The notes beneath the pieces were generated by a model, which was given only the letters and a program-made list of their open reading frames with translations, ran no database searches and was not told where the DNA came from. A program made the position numbers and the translations under genes. This document shows, one piece after another, positions 43,855 through 51,520 of a DNA stretch of 64,000 nt. The stretch is from Myxococcus dinghuensis (GTDB lineage Bacteria > Myxococcota > Myxococcia > Myxococcales > Myxococcaceae): NCBI RefSeq assembly GCF_024198235.1, contig NZ_JAKCFB010000017.1:1-64000 (forward strand). The letters run 5' to 3'. Position 1 is the stretch's first letter. The number at the start of each line of letters is the position of its first letter.

Positions 43855-45279
43855 GTGGTCGGGTCTCCTAGACTCGGTCGCGTGGGCCCACCGTCGAACA
43901 ACGTGGACGGCGGCAAGAACGCGCTGTTGCGCGCGCTCCCCTCCATCGAACAACTGCTGCGGCGTCCCTCGCTGGAGCCCCTTCTGGCCAGCGTTCCCCG
44001 GGCGCGCGCGGTGTCCGCCTTGCGGCTGGCGGTGGACCGCGTCCGGGCCCGCCTGCTCCGGGGCGAACCGCGAGTCTTCCAGGACGCGGACGTGAAGGAC
44101 GCGCTGGACGTCCTCGCCACGCCGCGGCTGCGCCCCGTCCACAACGCCACGGGCGTGGTGCTGCACACGAACCTGGGGCGTGCTCCGCTGGCGGCCGAAG
44201 CGGTGGCCCGGGCGGCGCGCGTGGGACAGGGCTACTCCAACCTCGAGTACGACCTGGACGAGGGCGAGCGGGGCAGCCGCTACGCGCCCGTGGTGGACCT
44301 CCTGCGCGAGCTCACCGGGGCGGAGGACGCGCTCGTCGTCAACAACTGCGCCGGGGCGGTGCTGCTGGTGCTCGCGGCGCTGGCGGCCGGACGCGAGTGT
44401 GTCGTCTCGCGGGGAGAGCTGGTGGAGATTGGCGGCGGCTTCCGCGTGCCGGACGTCATGCGCCAGTCGGGGTCGAAGCTGGTGGAGGTGGGGACCACCA
44501 ACCGCACGCGCCTGGCGGATTATGCGGGCGCGGTGGGGCCGGAGACGGGGCTGCTGGTGAAGGTCCACCGCTCCAACTTCGCGGTGGTGGGCTTCACGGA
44601 GGACGTGGGCGTGGAGGCGTTGGCCACGCTGGGACGGCAGAAGGGGGTGCCCGTGTTCCAGGACCTGGGGTCCGGGGCGCTGGTGCCGCTGGTGGGAGAA
44701 GGACTCGCGGATGAATTGACGGTGCCTCGCGCGGTGGCGGCGGGAGCGGACGTGGTGGCCTTCTCCGGCGACAAGCTGCTGGGAGGCCCGCAGGCGGGAA
44801 TCGTGGTGGGACGCGCGGCGCTGATCTCGCGCATCAAGGCCCATCCGCTCACGCGCGCGCTGCGCGTGGACAAGATGACGGTGGCCGCGCTGGAGGCGAC
44901 CCTGGAGTTGTACCGGGACGGCCGTCCGGATGCGGTTCCCACGTACAGGCTGCTTGCCCAGCCCGCGGACATGCTGCGCGGGCGAGCGGGGCGGCTTCAG
45001 GCTTTGCTGGCGGAACGGGACGTGCGTTCCCGAGTGGATGCGGTGGTGGGACAGGTGGGTGGGGGTGCCATGCCGCTGGCCCGGTTGCCTTCCTTCGCGT
45101 GCGTCCTCAACGTTGAGGCGCCGGAATCACTCCTCGAACGCCTGCGCGGCGGAGGAGTGCCGGTTATTGGCAGGATGTCGGACGGCGAGGTGATCCTCGA
45201 CGTCCGGTGTCTCGCGGAGGAGGAGCTCAGGTCGGTCGCCGAAGAGGTGGCGGCCGCAAGTCCCGGGAAACCACCATGA
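43855..45279 (+). CDS. selA: L-seryl-tRNA(Sec) selenium transferase
   Basis: 474 residues. PLP enzyme that converts Ser-tRNA(Sec) to selenocysteinyl-tRNA(Sec) using selenophosphate. HNATGVVLHTNLGRAPL, YSNLEYDLDEGERGSR, ALVVNNCAGAVLL and SGDKLLGGPQAGIV with the PLP lysine K307 are diagnostic. The start GTG at 43855 lies four bases after GGAG; a GTG nine codons on is the alternative. The stop overlaps the HNH gene by four bases. selB and selD are not seen in the window. Confidence 0.94.
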   Translation: MVGSPRLGRVGPPSNNVDGGKNALLRALPSIEQLLRRPSLEPLLASVPRARAVSALRLAVDRVRARLLRGEPRVFQDADVKDALDVLATPRLRPVHNATGVVLHTNLGRAPLAAEAVARAARVGQGYSNLEYDLDEGERGSRYAPVVDLLRELTGAEDALVVNNCAGAVLLVLAALAAGRECVVSRGELVEIGGGFRVPDVMRQSGSKLVEVGTTNRTRLADYAGAVGPETGLLVKVHRSNFAVVGFTEDVGVEALATLGRQKGVPVFQDLGSGALVPLVGEGLADELTVPRAVAAGADVVAFSGDKLLGGPQAGIVVGRAALISRIKAHPLTRALRVDKMTVAALEATLELYRDGRPDAVPTYRLLAQPADMLRGRAGRLQALLAERDVRSRVDAVVGQVGGGAMPLARLPSFACVLNVEAPESLLERLRGGGVPVIGRMSDGEVILDVRCLAEEELRSVAEEVAAASPGKPP

Positions 45280-45869
45280 TCAACAGCGCCGTCCTCGTCC
45301 TCAACCGGTACTACCAACCGGTGCATGTCACGTCGGTGAAGCGGGCGTTCTCGCTGCTGTATCAGGGCGTCGCCAAGGCCATCGACGCGCAGTACCGGCT
45401 CTACGAGTTCGACGATTGGGCGGCGCTGAGCGCCACGCAGGACTGCATCACCACCATCAACCGGACCATCCGCGTGCCCCGGGTGCTGGTGCTCAGCGCC
45501 TACGACCACCTGCCCCGAGGGCGGGTGCGCTTCTCCCGGCTCAACATCTACGCCCGGGACGCGGACACCTGTCAGTACTGCGGGAAGACGCTGCCGCGCA
45601 GCGACCTGAACCTGGACCACGTGATGCCACGCACCCAGGGCGGGAAGACGACGTGGGAGAACGTCGTCTGCTCGTGCGTGCCCTGCAACCTGATGAAGGG
45701 CGGCCGCACGCCGGAGCAGGCGGGCATGACGCTGCTCAAGAAGCCCGTGCGTCCTCGCTGGACGCCGCTGTTCCGCGGGGCCACGCGCAAGGTGACCTAC
45801 CAGGAATGGCTGCCCTTCCTGCACCTGGCGGACGCCTCGTACTGGAACGTGGAGCTGCTGGACGACTAG
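45276..45869 (+). CDS. HNH endonuclease family protein
   Basis: 197 residues. The HNH domain is at about 95-150: CQYCGKTLPRSDLNLDHVMP, then TWENVVCSCVPCNLMKGG, with zinc pairs CQYC and CVPC and the DH catalytic core. The N-terminal AVLVLNRYYQPVHVTSVKRA and VRPRWTPLF are typical of a broadly conserved bacterial HNH family, not of homing endonucleases. It overlaps selA by four bases. Role unknown; usual in genomes without mobile elements near it. Confidence 0.9.
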   Translation: MINSAVLVLNRYYQPVHVTSVKRAFSLLYQGVAKAIDAQYRLYEFDDWAALSATQDCITTINRTIRVPRVLVLSAYDHLPRGRVRFSRLNIYARDADTCQYCGKTLPRSDLNLDHVMPRTQGGKTTWENVVCSCVPCNLMKGGRTPEQAGMTLLKKPVRPRWTPLFRGATRKVTYQEWLPFLHLADASYWNVELLDD

Positions 45870-46025: not shown

Positions 46026-47045
46026 ATGCCGAAGCCCTCGCGAGCGCCCCTGGCCGAAGCCCGTGCCCTGGGCACCCCGATCCCCGAAGTGCGTGTCTCC
46101 GGACCGCCGGGGCTGGGAAGTCGTCCGCGCCCCAAGCGCATCATCGCGGTGGGAGGCGGCAAGGGCGGCATCGGCAAGTCGATGGTCTCCGCGAACCTGG
46201 GTGTGGCCCTGGCACAGGCGGGGATGAACGTGCTGCTGGTGGACGCGGACCTGGGCGGGGCCAACCTGCACACGTGCCTGGGCGTGGGACAGCCCGAGGC
46301 GACGCTGTCCGACTTCCTGCGCAAGAACAAGGCGCGGCTGGAGGACGTCATCGTCCCCACGGGGGTGCCCCGCCTGTCGCTGATCGCCGGCGCGCAGGAT
46401 GCGCTGGACGCGGCGAACCTCAAGTACGCGCAGAAGCAGAAGTTGCTCAAGACGCTGATGGGGGCGACGGCGGACTACCTCATCCTGGACCTGGGCGCGG
46501 GGACGAGCTTCAACACCATCGACTTCTTCATCATGGCCGACCACGGCCTGCTCGTGGTGCTGCCGGAGCCGACGTCGGTGGAGAACGCGTACCGCTTCGC
46601 GAAGGCGGCGTTCTTCCGGCGGTTGCAGCAGATGGAGGCCGAGTACGGCATCCAGGACGTGGTGGACAGCGCGTTGACCACGCGCGAGGGGTCGCTGCGC
46701 ACGCTGCATGACGTGCTGGGGCAGGTGCGACGCAAGGACCCGGTGGCCGCGGAGCGGTTGGAGCGGGAGCTGGCCGAGTTCCGCATCCGGCTCATCGTCA
46801 ACCAGGCGCGCACGGACGCCGACCTGAGCGTGGGGGCCGCGGTGGCCGCCGCGTGGAAGAAGTTCTTCGGCATCGACATGGACGACCTCGGTGCCATCCG
46901 CTACGACGACGAGGCCTGGCGCGCGGTGCGCAAGCGCCGGCCCGTGCTCATCGAGCGCCCCGACTCCCCGGCCGCCACGGCCATCCAGCGTATCGCCTCG
47001 CGCCTGCTCGCCCTCGACGGCTCCGACACCTCGCCCAACCCATGA
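46026..47045 (+). CDS. MinD/FlhG-like ParA-family ATPase
   Basis: 339 residues. Deviant Walker A GGGKGGIGKS (43-52), switch motifs DADLGGANLHTCLG and LDLGAGTSFNTIDF, and no C-terminal amphipathic membrane helix seen. The leader of 38 residues is Pro/Arg rich. ATG at 46026 follows GGGAG by five bases; ATG at 46014 is possible. FlhG/MinD-like ATPases place polar or mid-cell structures; no flagellar genes are nearby. The stop overlaps the next gene (ATGA), so it is coupled with the J-like/HTH protein. Confidence 0.9.
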   Translation: MPKPSRAPLAEARALGTPIPEVRVSGPPGLGSRPRPKRIIAVGGGKGGIGKSMVSANLGVALAQAGMNVLLVDADLGGANLHTCLGVGQPEATLSDFLRKNKARLEDVIVPTGVPRLSLIAGAQDALDAANLKYAQKQKLLKTLMGATADYLILDLGAGTSFNTIDFFIMADHGLLVVLPEPTSVENAYRFAKAAFFRRLQQMEAEYGIQDVVDSALTTREGSLRTLHDVLGQVRRKDPVAAERLERELAEFRIRLIVNQARTDADLSVGAAVAAAWKKFFGIDMDDLGAIRYDDEAWRAVRKRRPVLIERPDSPAATAIQRIASRLLALDGSDTSPNP

Positions 47046-48829
47046 AGCCTTTCGCGCAGCAGACCTACTACGAGATCCTGGAGGTTCCCGTCACCGCGCC
47101 GATGGAGGACATCCACGCGGCCTACAAGCGGCTGATGGAGCTGTATGCGCCAGACTCCATCGCCGTGTACGCGCTCGTGGACCCCGATCAGGTCGACGCG
47201 CTGCGTGCCCGGATGACCGAGGCGATGGAGATCCTCACCGAGCCCGACCTGCGGGTCGAATACGACAAGGACCTCGGGCTGCCTGCGCTGCGACTCGTCG
47301 AGGCCGCGACCCCGGCTCCCTCCGCGGTGGAGCGCGCGGCGGAGTCGCTCTCGACCGCCGTCGCGGAGAAGCGCGATGGCGCGGTGACGGCCGAGACGAA
47401 GGGGGCCCCCACCGAGCCGCCCGTGGCGGTCGAAGAGGAGAAGCCCGAGAAGCGTCGTCGCTCCGCGGAGGACGCGGGGGAGGCCTCGAATGGCGTCACC
47501 TCGACGGGAGTCCAGGACTTCCGGGCCAGCTTCTTCACCGGCTTCTCGCTGGGGTATGTGACCAGCTCGTTCCAGATGTCCCCCGCGATGGGGAGCGCCG
47601 TGGATGTCTCGGCCGCGATGTCCCGCGCCGAGAGCGCCTCCAGCGAGGCTCCCGTCGCGAACGCTTCGGCCACGGAGGGCGGCGCGGTCGATGCCCGGTC
47701 GCGTGGGGGCACCCACGGCGAGGCCGCGACGTCGTCGGCTGGAGTGGAGCCTCGGGCCGTGTCGGCGCCGACGGCGGTCGCGAACGGGCTCCAGGATGCG
47801 GGTTCGACTCCTCTGCCCGGGGATGCCGCGGGGCAGGGGAGTGGCGAGGGCACTGTTGCCGCGGAGGCTCGGTCGCGCGCTGTGTCCCCGGCGCCCCAAG
47901 CTCACGCCCTGTCTGTGCCGCCGTCCGCGACGACGACGGTCGCGGAGGTGGCGTCCGAAGCTCACGCCCTGGCTGCTTCTCCGTCCGCGACGACGATGGG
48001 CGCGGAGGTGGTGGCGTCGGAAGCTCAGGCCATGCCTGCGTCGCCGTCCGCGCCGATGCCGGCCCCCGAGGCCGTGGTGTCCCATCCTCAGGCCTCGGCC
48101 TCGACACCGGTCGCCGTGCCTCCGGCCCAGGTTCATGCATCCCCCGCGCAGCCGGTCGCGTCGACCGGCGTGATGGCCTCGGCGCAGGTCGAGGCCAGCG
48201 TCGTGGCCGCCCCGGCGTCGCAGGCCGCGGCCACGAACACGGCGCCCGCTGTGGTGGCCTCCGCGCCCGTGACAGCGCAGGTCGAGGTCTCCCCGGCGCC
48301 ACAGCCCGTGGCTACGACTCCGGTGGTCGCCCCTCCGGTGTCGCAAATCGCCTCCCAGGTCGCGGACGCCCCGCCTGTGGTCACCCAGACCCCTGCGTCC
48401 TCCGAACTCGCCCTGGCGTCCCGACCCGCGTCGCGTCCGTCGCCGGGAGGGCGCCGCCTGGGCGACGCGCAGGTGCTGTCCCAGGACGCGGCCATTGCCA
48501 CGGCGGAGGCCGCCATGGCGCAGGTGGCCGCGCGGGTGCGCGAGGTCCGGCCTCGCATCCCGGACATCCCCTCCGACGCCGAGTTCAACGGCGAGCTGCT
48601 GCGCCGCGTCCGCGAGGCCCGGGGCTACACGCTCCAGCAGGTCGCGGACCGGACACGAATCTCCTCTCGGCACCTCGAGAACGTCGAGGCGGACCGCTAC
48701 ACCGCGCTCCCGGCCCAGGTGTACCTGCGTGGCATCCTCATGAACCTCGCCCGGGAGCTGGGGTTGGATCCGCTCCGGGTCTCCCGGAGCTACCTGGCCT
48801 TGGCTTTTGAGAAGTCGGGCAAGAAGTAA
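47042..48829 (+). CDS. J-domain-like / HTH_25 fusion protein
   Basis: 595 residues. The N-terminus (about 8-78) resembles a J domain: TYYEILEVPVTAPMEDIHAA, YKRLMELYAPDS; but the HPD motif is APD (36-38), so it may not stimulate DnaK. The middle (80-510) is a low-complexity Ala/Val/Pro/Ser region with tandem repeats (286-348). The C-terminus (about 512-585) is an HTH_25 domain as in RodZ: FNGELLRRVREARGYTLQQV, TRISSRHLENVEADRYTALP. There is no transmembrane segment, unlike RodZ. It overlaps the MinD-like gene; the two probably form a complex. Confidence 0.85.
   Translation: MKPFAQQTYYEILEVPVTAPMEDIHAAYKRLMELYAPDSIAVYALVDPDQVDALRARMTEAMEILTEPDLRVEYDKDLGLPALRLVEAATPAPSAVERAAESLSTAVAEKRDGAVTAETKGAPTEPPVAVEEEKPEKRRRSAEDAGEASNGVTSTGVQDFRASFFTGFSLGYVTSSFQMSPAMGSAVDVSAAMSRAESASSEAPVANASATEGGAVDARSRGGTHGEAATSSAGVEPRAVSAPTAVANGLQDAGSTPLPGDAAGQGSGEGTVAAEARSRAVSPAPQAHALSVPPSATTTVAEVASEAHALAASPSATTMGAEVVASEAQAMPASPSAPMPAPEAVVSHPQASASTPVAVPPAQVHASPAQPVASTGVMASAQVEASVVAAPASQAAATNTAPAVVASAPVTAQVEVSPAPQPVATTPVVAPPVSQIASQVADAPPVVTQTPASSELALASRPASRPSPGGRRLGDAQVLSQDAAIATAEAAMAQVAARVREVRPRIPDIPSDAEFNGELLRRVREARGYTLQQVADRTRISSRHLENVEADRYTALPAQVYLRGILMNLARELGLDPLRVSRSYLALAFEKSGKK
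47898..48085 (+). repeat. Tandem repeat of 60/63 bp inside the J/HTH gene
   Basis: Three to four imperfect direct units begin at 47898, 47958 and 48021 with AAGCTCACGCC or AAGCTCAGGCC. They encode units such as AHALSVPPSATTTVAEVASE and AHALAASPSATTMGAEV. Unit lengths are multiples of three, so the frame is kept and copy number may vary between strains. Confidence 0.7.
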
Positions 48830-48914: not shown

Positions 48915-49178
48915 ATGACGGACGAGGAAAAGGTCAAGGCGATGCGGCTCGCCCGAGCGATTGCCTCGGATATCTCGCTCTACAACGAGCAGAAGATCAT
49001 CAAGGGCATCGAGCAGGACAATCTCTTCGATGTCCTCAAGGAGGAACTCGAGGAGGGTCGCGAGCTGTACAGGAGTCGCGTCAGCCAGGAGATCTTCACC
49101 AAGGCGAACTTCTTCGAGCGCGCCGTGAATGACATCGTCCTGCGCTCCAAGGCGCACGTGAAGTCGAAGATCTGGTAG
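48915..49178 (+). CDS. Small conserved cytoplasmic protein
   Basis: 87 residues, all helical and charged: DEEKVKAMRLARAIASDISL, YNEQKIIKGIEQDN, ELEEGRELYRSRV. No motif is recognised. ATG at 48915 follows GGGAGGACG. It lies 10 bases before rluD and may be co-transcribed. The strong ribosome binding site and dense helical content support a real gene. Confidence 0.78.
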   Translation: MTDEEKVKAMRLARAIASDISLYNEQKIIKGIEQDNLFDVLKEELEEGRELYRSRVSQEIFTKANFFERAVNDIVLRSKAHVKSKIW

Positions 49179-49188
49179 TCCGCTGAAC

Positions 49189-50229
49189 GTGGCAGCGCCC
49201 GACACCCGCGAGCACCGCGCCGCGCCCTCCGCTCGTGGAGAGCGCGTGGATCAGTATCTCGCGCAGGCGTTCCCCGACCTCACCCGCTCCCGCATCCGCT
49301 CCCTCATCGACGACGGCCATGTCCTCGTTGATGGGCGCGTCGTGAAGGCCGCGTTGCGGCTGCGCGGTGGCGAGCTGCTCACCCTGCACGTCCCCGCACC
49401 CGTCGCCGCCATCCCCGAGGCGGAGGCCCTGCCGCTCACGTTGCTGCACGAGGACAAGGACCTCGTGGTGGTGGACAAGGCGGCGGGCATGGTGGTGCAC
49501 CCCGGCGCGGGCCACGCGTCCGGCACGCTCGTCAACGCCCTGCTGCACCGGGTGAAGGACCTGGCGGGCGTGGGCGGGGAGCTGCGCCCCGGCATCGTCC
49601 ACCGCCTCGACAAGGACACCACCGGCTGTCTCGCCGTGGCGAAGAACGACCAGGCCCTGGTCGCGCTCCAGAAGTCCTTCAAGACGCGCGCGGTGCAGAA
49701 GACGTATCTCGCGCTCGTGCACGGCGCCCCGCCCGCGGAGGGGCGCATCGAGACGCTCTACGGGCGTCACCCCGTCCACCGGCAGCGCTTCACCGGCAAG
49801 GTGAGGGAGGGCAAGCCGGCCATCACCCTCTACCGCGTGCTCGAGGTGTTCGACGGCGCCGCGCTGGTGGAGGTGGACCTGCTCACGGGCCGCACGCACC
49901 AGATCCGCGTCCACCTCTCGGAGGCGGGCCATCCGCTCCTCGGTGACACGCTCTACGGCGCGGGTCGCAAGCCCAAGGGGCTCGCGGGCGAGGCCCAGTC
50001 GCTCGTGGGGCGTCAGGCGCTGCACGCGTGGCGGCTGGCGTTCGCGCACCCGCGTACGGGCAAGGCGCTCTCGCTGGAGGCCCCCATCCCGGCGGACCTC
50101 GAGGCGGCGCTGCGCCTGTTGCGAGGTGCCGGCGCGGAGCCGGAGGTGGAGCCCGCGCCGGCCCGGAAGAAGGCCCCGGCGCGGAAGAAGGCCGCGAAGC
50201 GCGCGGCGCCTACAGGCCGGACACGCTGA
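49189..50229 (+). CDS. rluD: 23S rRNA pseudouridine synthase (RluD-like)
   Basis: 346 residues. S4 domain at about 18-75 (ERVDQYLAQAFPDLTRSRIR), then the RsuA/RluA catalytic domain: GIVHRLDKDTTG with D141, GRTHQIRVHL and LLGDTLYG. It makes pseudouridines in 23S rRNA helix 69, by homology. A basic tail KKAPARKKAAKR extends beyond the family end, perhaps to bind rRNA. GTG start at 49189. The last 20 bases overlap the convergent HD gene. Confidence 0.93.
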   Translation: MAAPDTREHRAAPSARGERVDQYLAQAFPDLTRSRIRSLIDDGHVLVDGRVVKAALRLRGGELLTLHVPAPVAAIPEAEALPLTLLHEDKDLVVVDKAAGMVVHPGAGHASGTLVNALLHRVKDLAGVGGELRPGIVHRLDKDTTGCLAVAKNDQALVALQKSFKTRAVQKTYLALVHGAPPAEGRIETLYGRHPVHRQRFTGKVREGKPAITLYRVLEVFDGAALVEVDLLTGRTHQIRVHLSEAGHPLLGDTLYGAGRKPKGLAGEAQSLVGRQALHAWRLAFAHPRTGKALSLEAPIPADLEAALRLLRGAGAEPEVEPAPARKKAPARKKAAKRAAPTGRTR

Positions 50230-51520
50230 GCGTCTGCTGGCGCTTGGACAGCACCTTCACGGGCTGGATGGCCATGACGCGCATGAAGACCTGGAGCAGC
50301 TCCGGGTCGAACTTGTTGCGCATCTCCGTCCACATCAGCATGAGCGCGACCTCCGGGCCGTAGGCATCCCGGTAGGGGCGCTTGGAGGTGAGCGCGTCGT
50401 AGGCGTCGCAGATGGCGATGATCTTCGCGTAGGCCCCGAGGTTCGTCTTCGGGATGATCATCTGGATGTTGCCGCGAGCGTCGCGCACGGCCGTTCCGAA
50501 GTCCGTCTTGTGCTCGAACGTGGTGACGACGCGCAGCAGGGTGGAGCGGCTGAAGCCCTTCTCCATGAGGATGTTGCGCACGGAGATGAGGGGCGCGCGC
50601 TGCACGGCCACGCGCTCGTCCGCCGTCAGGGCGCCGCGCTTCGTCGCCAGCTCCTCCGGCAGCGTCGTCATGCCCGCGTCGTGGAAGAGGGCGATGTAGC
50701 CCAGGTCGCGCAGCTGCGGCTTGGTGAGCCCCAGCTCCGCGCCGAAGACGATGCTCATCAGGCAGACGTTGACCTGGTGGTACACGAGGTACTCGTGTTC
50801 CCGCTTCATGGTCGTCATGCCCAGGAAGTGCGTCTTCTGCTCGAAGGAGATGTCGACGAAGTCCTGCACCAACCGCAGCGCCTTGGAGGCGTTGATGGGT
50901 TTGCCGGCGCGGACGGACTCCAGGTACTTGCTGATGAAGAAGACCGAGCGCGCGTAGACGGTCATCGCGTACTTCTTCCGGTCGACCTTCTGGTCGCCCG
51001 GATCGTTCATGTCCTTGTCGAGCTTCTCCTTCAGCTTGGAGAACTTGGCGACGCGCATGTTGAGCAGCTTGCGCCCGGCGAGGCCGTCCTCCTCGGCCGC
51101 CGTCGCCTGCTCCTTGCTGAAGATCCACACGAAGTTCTTCAGCTCGGGGACCGTCACCTGCTTGGTGAGGGTGAAGCCGCCCACGTCCTTCGCGCGCATC
51201 TCCGACAGCAGGTAGCGCTGGTTCTCGATGGAGTTGAGGTCCACCTTCACCAGCATGCTGTTCAGGTAGAACGAGTCCTTGACGCCCACCAGCTCCAGCC
51301 GGCCTTCCTTGCCGATGATCTGGTTGATGATGTCCTGGAGCTGGTGCAGCGGCTTCTCGAAGACGGCGTTCTCGGGGTCGTACATCTTCACCGAGCGCAC
51401 CAGCATGTAGAGGCCCGCGACCATCGACCGCGAGAGCGCCTGGAGCTTCTCGTTGTGCTCACGGCCGAACTCGGTCGTGCTCTCGTCCTGGCTCTGGGTG
51501 ACCTTCAGGTTCTCGGCCAT
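50210..51520 (-). CDS. HD-GYP-like protein with degenerate GYP motif
   Basis: 436 residues. The C-terminal half holds an HD domain: YHQVNVCLMS (H248), FHDAGM (H280-D281), and CDAYDALTSKRPYRDAYGP near the end. The region where HD-GYP enzymes have HHExxDGxGYP reads TTFEHKTDFGTA, so the GYP loop is lost and c-di-GMP hydrolysis is doubtful. The N-terminal half (1-200) is an unassigned helical domain. It is three bases downstream of the HEAT-repeat gene, likely one operon. The 3' end overlaps rluD by 20 bases. Confidence 0.85.
   Translation of the reverse strand: MAENLKVTQSQDESTTEFGREHNEKLQALSRSMVAGLYMLVRSVKMYDPENAVFEKPLHQLQDIINQIIGKEGRLELVGVKDSFYLNSMLVKVDLNSIENQRYLLSEMRAKDVGGFTLTKQVTVPELKNFVWIFSKEQATAAEEDGLAGRKLLNMRVAKFSKLKEKLDKDMNDPGDQKVDRKKYAMTVYARSVFFISKYLESVRAGKPINASKALRLVQDFVDISFEQKTHFLGMTTMKREHEYLVYHQVNVCLMSIVFGAELGLTKPQLRDLGYIALFHDAGMTTLPEELATKRGALTADERVAVQRAPLISVRNILMEKGFSRSTLLRVVTTFEHKTDFGTAVRDARGNIQMIIPKTNLGAYAKIIAICDAYDALTSKRPYRDAYGPEVALMLMWTEMRNKFDPELLQVFMRVMAIQPVKVLSKRQQTLSVSGL

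Follow-up and report, generated by a model that had tools for sequence, protein, structure and literature searches.

The MinD/FlhG-type ATPases dimerise on ATP, and the named partners of ParA/MinD positioning ATPases include ParB, MinE, McdB and PomX/PomY. According to PMC10241942, known partners use a positively charged, disordered N-terminus. FleN/FlhG are the ATPases of flagellar number and placement, and FleN binds the transcription factor FleQ (PMC10723142). Proteins of the FlhG/FleN/MinD group end in an amphipathic helix that targets the membrane. The MreB adaptor RodZ has an N-terminal helix-turn-helix (HTH) domain followed by a transmembrane segment. The polarity module of Myxococcus comprises RomX, RomR, MglA and MglB. 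RomR, which carries RomX, is reported to be polar even without MglA and MglB (PMC7332107), and the portions of the RomR literature searched hold no statement of what brings RomR to the poles. According to a review, MglA-GTP in M. xanthus acts by interacting directly with MreB (PMC8144978).

The window, the whole 64,000-nucleotide stretch of Myxococcus dinghuensis DNA analysed here, holds directly upstream of romX the gene for a MinD/FlhG-like ATPase and that for a protein with a J-like head, a linker and an HTH tail (J-HTH). An ATPase gene followed by that of a possible cargo-bringing partner is also the order of the ParA/MinD pairs. J-HTH differs from their known partners in that its first 8 or so residues lead straight into a folded J-like domain. 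The features are:

45276 to 45869, + strand: HNH endonuclease-like gene (Pfam HNH_5/HNH), a conserved upstream neighbour
46026 to 47045, + strand: MinD/FlhG-like ATPase, 339 residues (open reading frame, Pfam, profile comparisons)
47042 to 47045, + strand: ATGA overlap of the ATPase stop and the J-HTH start (both reading frames)
47042 to 48829, + strand: J-HTH, J-like/linker/HTH_25 protein, 595 residues (open reading frame, Pfam, AlphaFold)
47063 to 47266, + strand: J-like domain with APD instead of HPD, then an S-x-A-x-Y stretch
47282 to 48466, + strand: low-complexity, mostly disordered linker, 395 residues (AlphaFold, composition)
48467 to 48538, + strand: predicted helix preceding the HTH, residues 476-499 (AlphaFold)
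48596 to 48772, + strand: RodZ-like HTH_25 domain (Pfam, structure and profile comparison)
48915 to 49178, + strand: romX, 87 residues, MglA partner of the polarity module (PDB sequence and fold match)
49189 to 50229, + strand: RluD-type pseudouridine synthase gene, rluD (Pfam), a conserved downstream neighbour

The overlap of the two genes, described in a first-pass annotation of the locus, is borne out by both frames, and the domains named there by the Pfam matches. As the ATPase frame is open from 45924, the start given for it is provisional. A promoter and terminator scan found nothing. By gene order the HNH gene is of the MXAN_3347 type and rluD of the MXAN_3352 type. Long frames also run on other strands and in other frames of this high-G+C sequence.

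The ATPase matches the Pfam families ParA, AAA_31 and CbiA. Its deviant Walker A motif, GGGKGGIGKS, conforms to the ParA/MinD pattern KGGxGK[ST] with the signature lysine, and K46, K51, D75 and D155 are invariant in 20 of 20 aligned rows. Scores lie below the curated MinD cut-offs (83 against 212.9 bits for minD_bact, 108.5 against 201.75 for minD_arch), and no conserved C-terminal tail follows the last core helix in the 20 rows. The nearest solved structures, compared through the family profile, are the FleN antiactivators (5j1j, E 1.2e-41). FleN/FlhG and the window ATPase have the deviant Walker A and motif order in common, but in the latter about 50 residues are inserted relative to FleN (profile 162-221, FleN 170-178), its family has GGANLHT where FleN has GLANVD, and the profile alignment ends at FleN residue 256 of 285 with nothing conserved beyond. 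Several other ATPases were set aside as paralogues, some being about 36-41% identical to the window ATPase with no adjoining J-HTH (L067, L068, L089, L100-L103), others having a C-terminal tail that appears PilZ-like by eye (L062, L076).

The third gene, 48915-49178, encodes RomX, the MglA partner in the Myxococcus polarity module. Pfam gives no match and NCBIfam one sub-threshold match; the identity was reached by structure prediction and PDB searches. The 87-residue protein matches M. xanthus RomX (PDB code 8ZNA) with E 1.6e-49 across all 87 residues, and superposition of the predicted fold gives a VIA Z of 14.6 and an rmsd of 2.9 over 86 aligned residues. No stretch of J-HTH is conserved strongly enough to serve as a scan profile. 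A scan made with RomX confirmed 308 loci, of which the best 80 come, by genome name, from named myxobacteria, Myxococcota/Myxococcales, ‘Deltaproteobacteria’, ‘Proteobacteria’ and ‘bacterium’ metagenome-assembled genomes (MAGs). An earlier guess at a polarity function had missed this neighbour; romX strengthens it, although neighbourhood is not function. The literature searched, part of it in excerpt, names neither the ATPase nor J-HTH within the RomX/RomR/MglA/MglB module, gives no link of either to RomX, though the Nat. Microbiol. 2019 RomX paper or the RomX preprint may mention one, and holds no mention of MXAN_3348.

That the ATPase and J-HTH form a conserved pair in much of the phylum Myxococcota is well supported. 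A lack of joint conservation had been named beforehand as a refuting outcome; in the phylum the genes are conserved together with some exceptions. At all 111 loci examined the ATPase stop and the nearest J-HTH start codon are -3 to +18 bp apart; 93 of the loci, and 77 of the 93 distinct junction sequences, show the same 4-base overlap (-3). At 68 RomX loci the upstream sequence is long enough for comparison. The ATPase is present at 41 of them, always together with the HTH part; J-HTH or the HTH alone is upstream at five, and at 22 no part of the pair lies within 4.2 kb. Of 34 genomes examined for such RomX without the pair, 14 have no ATPase at E 1e-25. Where ATPase orthologues occur away from romX a J domain is next in nine of nine loci (L187-L195). 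The exceptions include a genome with the ATPase alone and J-HTH still beside romX (G116; L087 and L086), five loci with J-HTH and no ATPase (L084, L085, L088, L092, L134) and four with 0.9-1.8 kb between the HTH part and romX (L057, L058, L060, L061). Two MAGs carry ATPase, J and HTH in one frame (L070, the same as L106, and L202), and two genomes an ATPase-HTH fusion without J (L073; L177, the same as L205, whose record is a MAG). A single-base error in the 4-base overlap could fake a fusion, so these frames are support and not proof. Coupling, joint relocation, joint absence and the natural ATPase-J-HTH fusions together give good support to the suggestion, made from the sequence of the locus, that J-HTH is the partner of the ATPase, and the two very probably act as one unit.

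We propose that the locus encodes a positioning-type ATPase with its cognate J-HTH adaptor, possibly in MglA/RomX polarity or MreB-linked motility, and give this reading as a whole a probability of roughly 0.45. The two genes would specify a two-protein spatial system in which the ATPase is a MinD/FlhG-type switch, dimerising on ATP. The J-like head, with HPD lost and S-x-A-x-Y conserved, would dock on the ATPase or regulate it, the disordered linker would be a spacer between head and tail, and the anchor-free RodZ-like tail would tether both proteins to a further protein, most likely the MreB cytoskeleton. The pair might then serve MglA/RomR/RomX front-rear polarity and motility, for example as a connection between MglA-GTP/RomX action and MreB or the pole. 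Location near romX suggests such service and makes the pair a good candidate for an extra part of the romX polarity system, but we assign it a role in polarity or motility only tentatively.

Does the position beside romX reflect a shared function? It is conceivable, though somewhat doubtful, that the pair serves positioning or division without any relation to MglA/RomX and that the HNH-pair-romX-rluD order is ancestral synteny. The HNH gene, present at 46 of 89 loci of relatives, and rluD share the same order and are conserved too, so that synteny need not mean shared function; several genomes have the pair away from romX and many have RomX without the pair. Such a history fits less well with the breadth of the association. 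The ATPase lies within 6 kb of RomX in 101 of 124 Myxococcota genomes for which both matches are listed, spanning 10 families, with ATPase matches weaker than about 1e-69 dropped as probable paralogues. Among good-quality genomes 123 have an ATPase match (E 1e-20, paralogues included), and, compared by eye, all but three of these have a RomX match as well; the three (G147, G168, G034) are assembled in 380-1240 contigs.

In J-HTH a Pfam scan finds only DnaJ (E 9.9e-9, residues 8-75) and HTH families (HTH_25, E 6.8e-20, residues 519-577); ParB/Noc, AAA+ and receiver domains are absent. AlphaFold gives high confidence to the J helices within residues 9-78 and to the HTH at 517-592, the middle being mostly disordered. 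The head shares the J fold with DnaJ-family proteins (2och; VIA Z 11.2, rmsd 1.4, 66 aligned residues). It is degenerate, as the first-pass annotation had noted, with APD where DnaJ proteins have HPD. The replacement extends to the family, since none of 83 distinct J domains of J-HTH relatives has HPD, and the relatives conserve the S-x-A-x-Y stretch in that loop. Of the 12 further J domains found in this genome, 11 have HPD and one HPL. J domains with an adjacent ATPase retain the tyrosine of S-x-A-x-Y in 74 of 77 cases, those without one in three of six. The comparison is small and uncorrected for kinship, and the ATPase-less genomes G043 and G096 nonetheless keep the tyrosine. We judge the chance that the J head contacts the ATPase to be about even.

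The head may still address DnaK, because MXAN_3349, its counterpart by gene order, is reported to bind both DnaK paralogues. PMC11019930 lists MXAN_3349 as one of 15 J proteins predicted in M. xanthus and reports that it co-precipitates with MxDnaK1 and MxDnaK2, which a split-luciferase assay confirmed, and that it declines under heat shock. As a pseudo-J cochaperone J-HTH would bind DnaK and bring it to the ATPase, MreB or a motility complex, any ATPase-J contact being secondary or absent. The intact fold, with the DnaK-bound J domain 5nro among its structure matches, accords with this. We nevertheless consider it unlikely, given the family-wide absence of HPD and the ATPase-HTH fusions that dispense with J. 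The mean net charge of the 16 residues before the tripeptide, -0.6 in the J-HTH family against +1.0 in the genome's 12 other J domains, also argues against it, although three of those 12 are negative too. MXAN_3349 is, in addition, equated with J-HTH by gene order and not by sequence.

The C-terminal domain of J-HTH is RodZ-like and has no membrane anchor, in agreement with the first reading of the sequence. HTH_25 and the C-terminal RodZ helices are common to both proteins, and an LP-x-VYLRG segment is conserved in the tail. In contrast to RodZ, the HTH of J-HTH stands at 519-577 of 595 and no transmembrane stretch is found, the best 19-residue hydropathy being 1.22. The same genome separately encodes a short RodZ-like protein with a membrane anchor (L217), for which the value is 2.47. 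Superposition on RodZ of the RodZ-MreB complex (2wus_R) gives a VIA Z of 12.2 and an rmsd of 2.4 over 83 aligned residues, a Z that in a small helical domain may mean merely a common arrangement, as the tool itself cautions. Of 13 PDB sequences found with the HTH profile at E 0.01, only 2wus RodZ, YmfM and CT009 align along the entire domain; the latter two we take to be RodZ relatives. The remaining ten, mostly regulators, span about the first half.

A cytoskeleton-bound adaptor is favoured over a DNA-bound one, since full-length matches to the domain come from the RodZ family alone; we put the chance that the tail binds MreB rather than DNA at about even. FleN works through the HTH protein FleQ, and here the gene next to the ATPase is J-HTH; a regulator pair of the FleN-FleQ kind, in which the HTH would attach to DNA or RNA under the control of the ATPase, would suit the kinship of the ATPase with FleN and the Z of 8-9 of HigA-type DNA-binding domains against the HTH. 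The partial coverage by regulators and the lack of AAA+ or receiver domains in J-HTH make it improbable.

A gene-model artefact or chance adjacency, the former named beforehand as a refuting outcome, is itself refuted: this high-G+C sequence does carry other long frames, but the 83 distinct conserved J domains, the confident domain folds, the -3 overlap at 93 of 111 loci and J and HTH in one frame at 60 of 89 relatives' loci (29 of the 89 with only about 1.5 kb of flank) are more than chance.

The adaptor proposed here has a J domain whose Hsp70 motif is gone and which has acquired a different conserved stretch, with a MinD-type ATPase in the preceding gene. Were it to dock that ATPase instead of Hsp70, the J fold would have been put to a new purpose. 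The fuller scheme makes the pair an unrecognised part of the polarity machinery, in which the MinD-type ATPase, docked on the J fold and joined to MreB by the RodZ-like tail of its pseudo-J adaptor, sets or times the place of RomR/RomX action on MglA. It is a long shot; if true, a positioning ATPase, the actin cytoskeleton and a Ras-like GTPase would form one spatial circuit. The two genes of the proposed ATPase-adaptor pair, which are widely conserved and immediately precede romX, are accessible in a standard laboratory organism.

The linker is of low complexity as first described, but at 395 residues (81-475) a little shorter than the 430 then given. Alanine makes up 23.5%, serine 12.9%, valine 11.4% and proline 11.1%. 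In relatives its length is very variable, with 20-539 residues between the J and HTH domain matches. The median is 189 residues at 97 loci with an adjacent ATPase, some of them the same genome twice; at seven J-HTH loci without one, six linkers have 40-56 residues and one 170, in a comparison uncorrected for kinship whose ATPase-less set includes kin (L084-L086 from one genus, L088 and L139 from one genome).

The ATPase overlaps J-HTH, the protein with a J-like head and a RodZ-like HTH_25 tail, and a third gene follows on the same strand.

46026-47045, + strand: ATPase, an open frame with Pfam matches to ParA, AAA_31 and CbiA
47042-48829, + strand: J-HTH, an open frame with DnaJ at residues 8-75 and HTH_25 at residues 519-577
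48915-49178, + strand: romX, 87 residues, assigned on predicted structure and a sequence match to PDB 8ZNA

The end of the ATPase frame and the beginning of the J-HTH frame have ATGA in common. The first-pass annotation had described an ATPase overlapping the start of a J-like/HTH_25 protein, and the frames, Pfam and AlphaFold bear this out; the linker, put at 430 residues, is somewhat shorter at 395. The AlphaFold model of J-HTH (41 aligned sequences) places the J head and HTH with high confidence and leaves the middle mostly disordered (mean pLDDT 62.4, pTM 0.35), with an extra helix predicted at residues 476-499.

The same annotation had left out the adjoining gene, the product of which has no match in Pfam and only a sub-threshold match in NCBIfam. 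Conservation among relatives is strong, with a mean column identity of 69% over 57 sequences, and the predicted structure has a mean pLDDT of 95.8. The fold resembles Myxococcus xanthus RomX, PDB 8ZNA (Foldseek E 5.3e-10; VIA Z 14.6, rmsd 2.9, 86 aligned), as does the sequence (E 1.6e-49). Judged by sequence and predicted fold, the gene is romX. A KSKIW-like C-terminal end is kept in most relatives. With matches in 170 of 193 Myxococcota genomes (E 1e-10), RomX appears to belong to the core genes of the phylum. RomX is reported to bind MglA, and with RomR has been described as an MglA GEF and polar recruitment complex (PMC9481161, PMC7332107, PMC10329633), whereas a later paper, citing a preprint, presents RomR/RomX as an MglA-GTP effector and not a conventional GEF (PMC12719032).

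The ATPase query has a match in 148 of 193 Myxococcota genomes (E 1e-20; some are paralogues) and the J head query in 110 of 117 (E 0.001; unrelated J proteins included). Among the matches listed, 124 genomes carry a probable ATPase orthologue and RomX, and in 101 of these, from 10 families, no more than 6 kb separates the two (median start-to-start distance 2.1 kb). In 22 of the other 23 they are on separate contigs, some perhaps through assembly breaks, and in one they are 43 kb apart. Both the family to which the window belongs and other Myxococcota families show the order HNH - ATPase - J-HTH - romX - rluD, examples being M. xanthus AM003 (L181) and Anaeromyxobacter oryzae (L109), and in four loci (L057, L058, L060, L061) 0.9-1.8 kb separates the HTH part from romX. 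In nine loci (L122, L145, L148, L156, L157, L167, L171, L178, L182) HNH leads straight into romX and both genes of the pair are missing, which looks like loss of the pair or a site that it never entered. In the window an HD_5 (HD-GYP-type) protein at 50213-51520, - strand, is convergent with rluD.

Coupling of the two genes is close. In 111 loci the distance from the ATPase stop to the closest J-HTH start codon is between -3 and +18 bp, and in 93 of them it is exactly -3; counting distinct junction sequences, 77 of 93 are at -3. Of the best 80 of 308 RomX loci, 12 with incomplete sequence were set aside and 68 scored over 4.2 kb upstream. ATPase and HTH occur together in 41, as separate genes with a J domain in 39, as one ATPase-J-HTH fusion and as one ATPase-HTH fusion; J-HTH is alone in two, HTH alone in three, and 22 have none of the pair within that distance. 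An ATPase lacking the HTH was seen in none of the 68. In a set of 34 genomes, picked mostly because romX lacks the full pair next to it, an ATPase match (E 1e-25; some paralogues) was obtained for 20 and none for 14. The nine strongest matches away from romX (L187-L195) all have a J domain next. The pairing has exceptions: genome G116 has a lone ATPase (L087) and, elsewhere, J-HTH beside romX (L086). J-HTH stands without the ATPase at L084, L085, L088, L092 and L134; profile searches found no ATPase in genomes G043, G096 and G004, nor in that of L134, and in G088 the sole ATPase retained is paralogue-like. That the ATPase and J-HTH form a pair is well supported.

Natural fusions also occur, and the fusion genomes that bear names are metagenome assemblies. 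ATPase, J and HTH share a single frame at L070, whose contig is also that of L106 ('Myxococcota bacterium isolate Bin_71R'), and at L202, from the L165 genome ('Polyangia bacterium isolate 4_bin.22'), and ATPase and HTH, without J, at L073 and L205 (genome of L177). RomX and RluD follow L073 and L205, and RomX follows L070; the 3.6 kb covered by L202 showed no RomX.

Histidine is absent from the HPD position in all 83 distinct J domains of J-HTH proteins, replaced by A (30), S (20), G (20), E (6), D (4), R (2) or L (1). Of the 13 J domains found in the window's genome, the 12 besides J-HTH carry HPD (11) or HPL (1). Mean net charge over the 16 residues preceding the motif is -0.6 in the J-HTH family against +1.0 in the other 12, of which three also carry a negative charge. 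The tyrosine seven positions past the histidine site is kept in 77 of 83 domains: 74 of 77 beside an ATPase and three of six without (Fisher 0.004, kinship ignored). Of the three ATPase-adjacent exceptions, one is the L070 fusion and the other two carry F or H. J-HTH linkers are likewise longer where the ATPase adjoins. Both contrasts fit with a J head that may have been shaped by the ATPase, although the sample is small and the tyrosine is kept in two ATPase-less genomes.

One alternative is that J-HTH is a pseudo-J cochaperone still binding DnaK, the ATPase contact being secondary or absent. In M. xanthus, MXAN_3350 we take to be RomX; by gene order MXAN_3348 is the inferred orthologue of the ATPase and MXAN_3349 that of J-HTH. 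MXAN_3347, the upstream gene by the same order, is described as a nuclease (PMC9738627) and MXAN_3352 as an RluA-family synthase (PMC3546991). The strongest evidence for the DnaK alternative is that MXAN_3349, listed among 15 predicted J proteins, is reported to co-precipitate with both DnaK paralogues, with confirmation by split luciferase; heat shock lowers it (PMC11019930). These data also fit the gene-order assignment of J-HTH. No mention of MXAN_3348 was found in the literature searched.

With a profile of 21 J-HTH tails, 13 PDB sequences were retrieved at E 0.01. The match spans the whole domain for CT009, YmfM and the RodZ of 2wus, and roughly its first half for the other ten. VIA ranks the RodZ of the RodZ-MreB complex first (Z 12.2, rmsd 2.4, 83 aligned), ahead of YmfM (Z 11.0) and HigA-type domains (Z 8-9), with its own caution that such Z for small helical domains may mean a common arrangement. 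RodZ binds MreB through this HTH_25-type region. No membrane segment was found in J-HTH; the genome also encodes a separate short, membrane-anchored RodZ-like protein (L217, G000:C65:47046-47228; frame of about 134 residues, HTH_25 and one hydrophobic segment).

All 20 aligned ATPase rows keep the Walker A motif with its signature lysine unchanged, as well as the catalytic aspartate and the Walker B aspartate, and scores of the ATPase fall under the curated MinD cut-offs. The nearest solved relative is FleN, from which it differs in aligning as two segments around an insertion of some 50 residues (profile 162 to 221, FleN 170 to 178); the alignment stops at FleN residue 256 of 285.

Most likely, a positioning-type ATPase works with J-HTH as its cognate adaptor, the J head of which would address the ATPase and the RodZ-like tail of which would engage another protein, for example MreB, both being putative contacts. 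This is an ATPase-partner system of a known class; in the literature searched we found no description of a partner architecture like J-HTH. MglA-GTP, the target of RomX, is stated to interact directly with MreB (PMC8144978), and a role for the pair in polarity, at the MglA-MreB junction, is therefore a concrete hypothesis.

Relatives of the ATPase without J-HTH exist. At L067 and L068 one is followed by a coiled-coil-like gene, FliJ/YscO-like by eye, and is perhaps a secretion- or flagellum-linked paralogue. Related MinD-like ATPases at L062 and L076 have a C-terminal extension, PilZ-like by eye, and paralogues at L196, L197, L198 and L201 carry long, acidic, proline-rich C-terminal tails, with frames of 613 to 854 residues within the locus.
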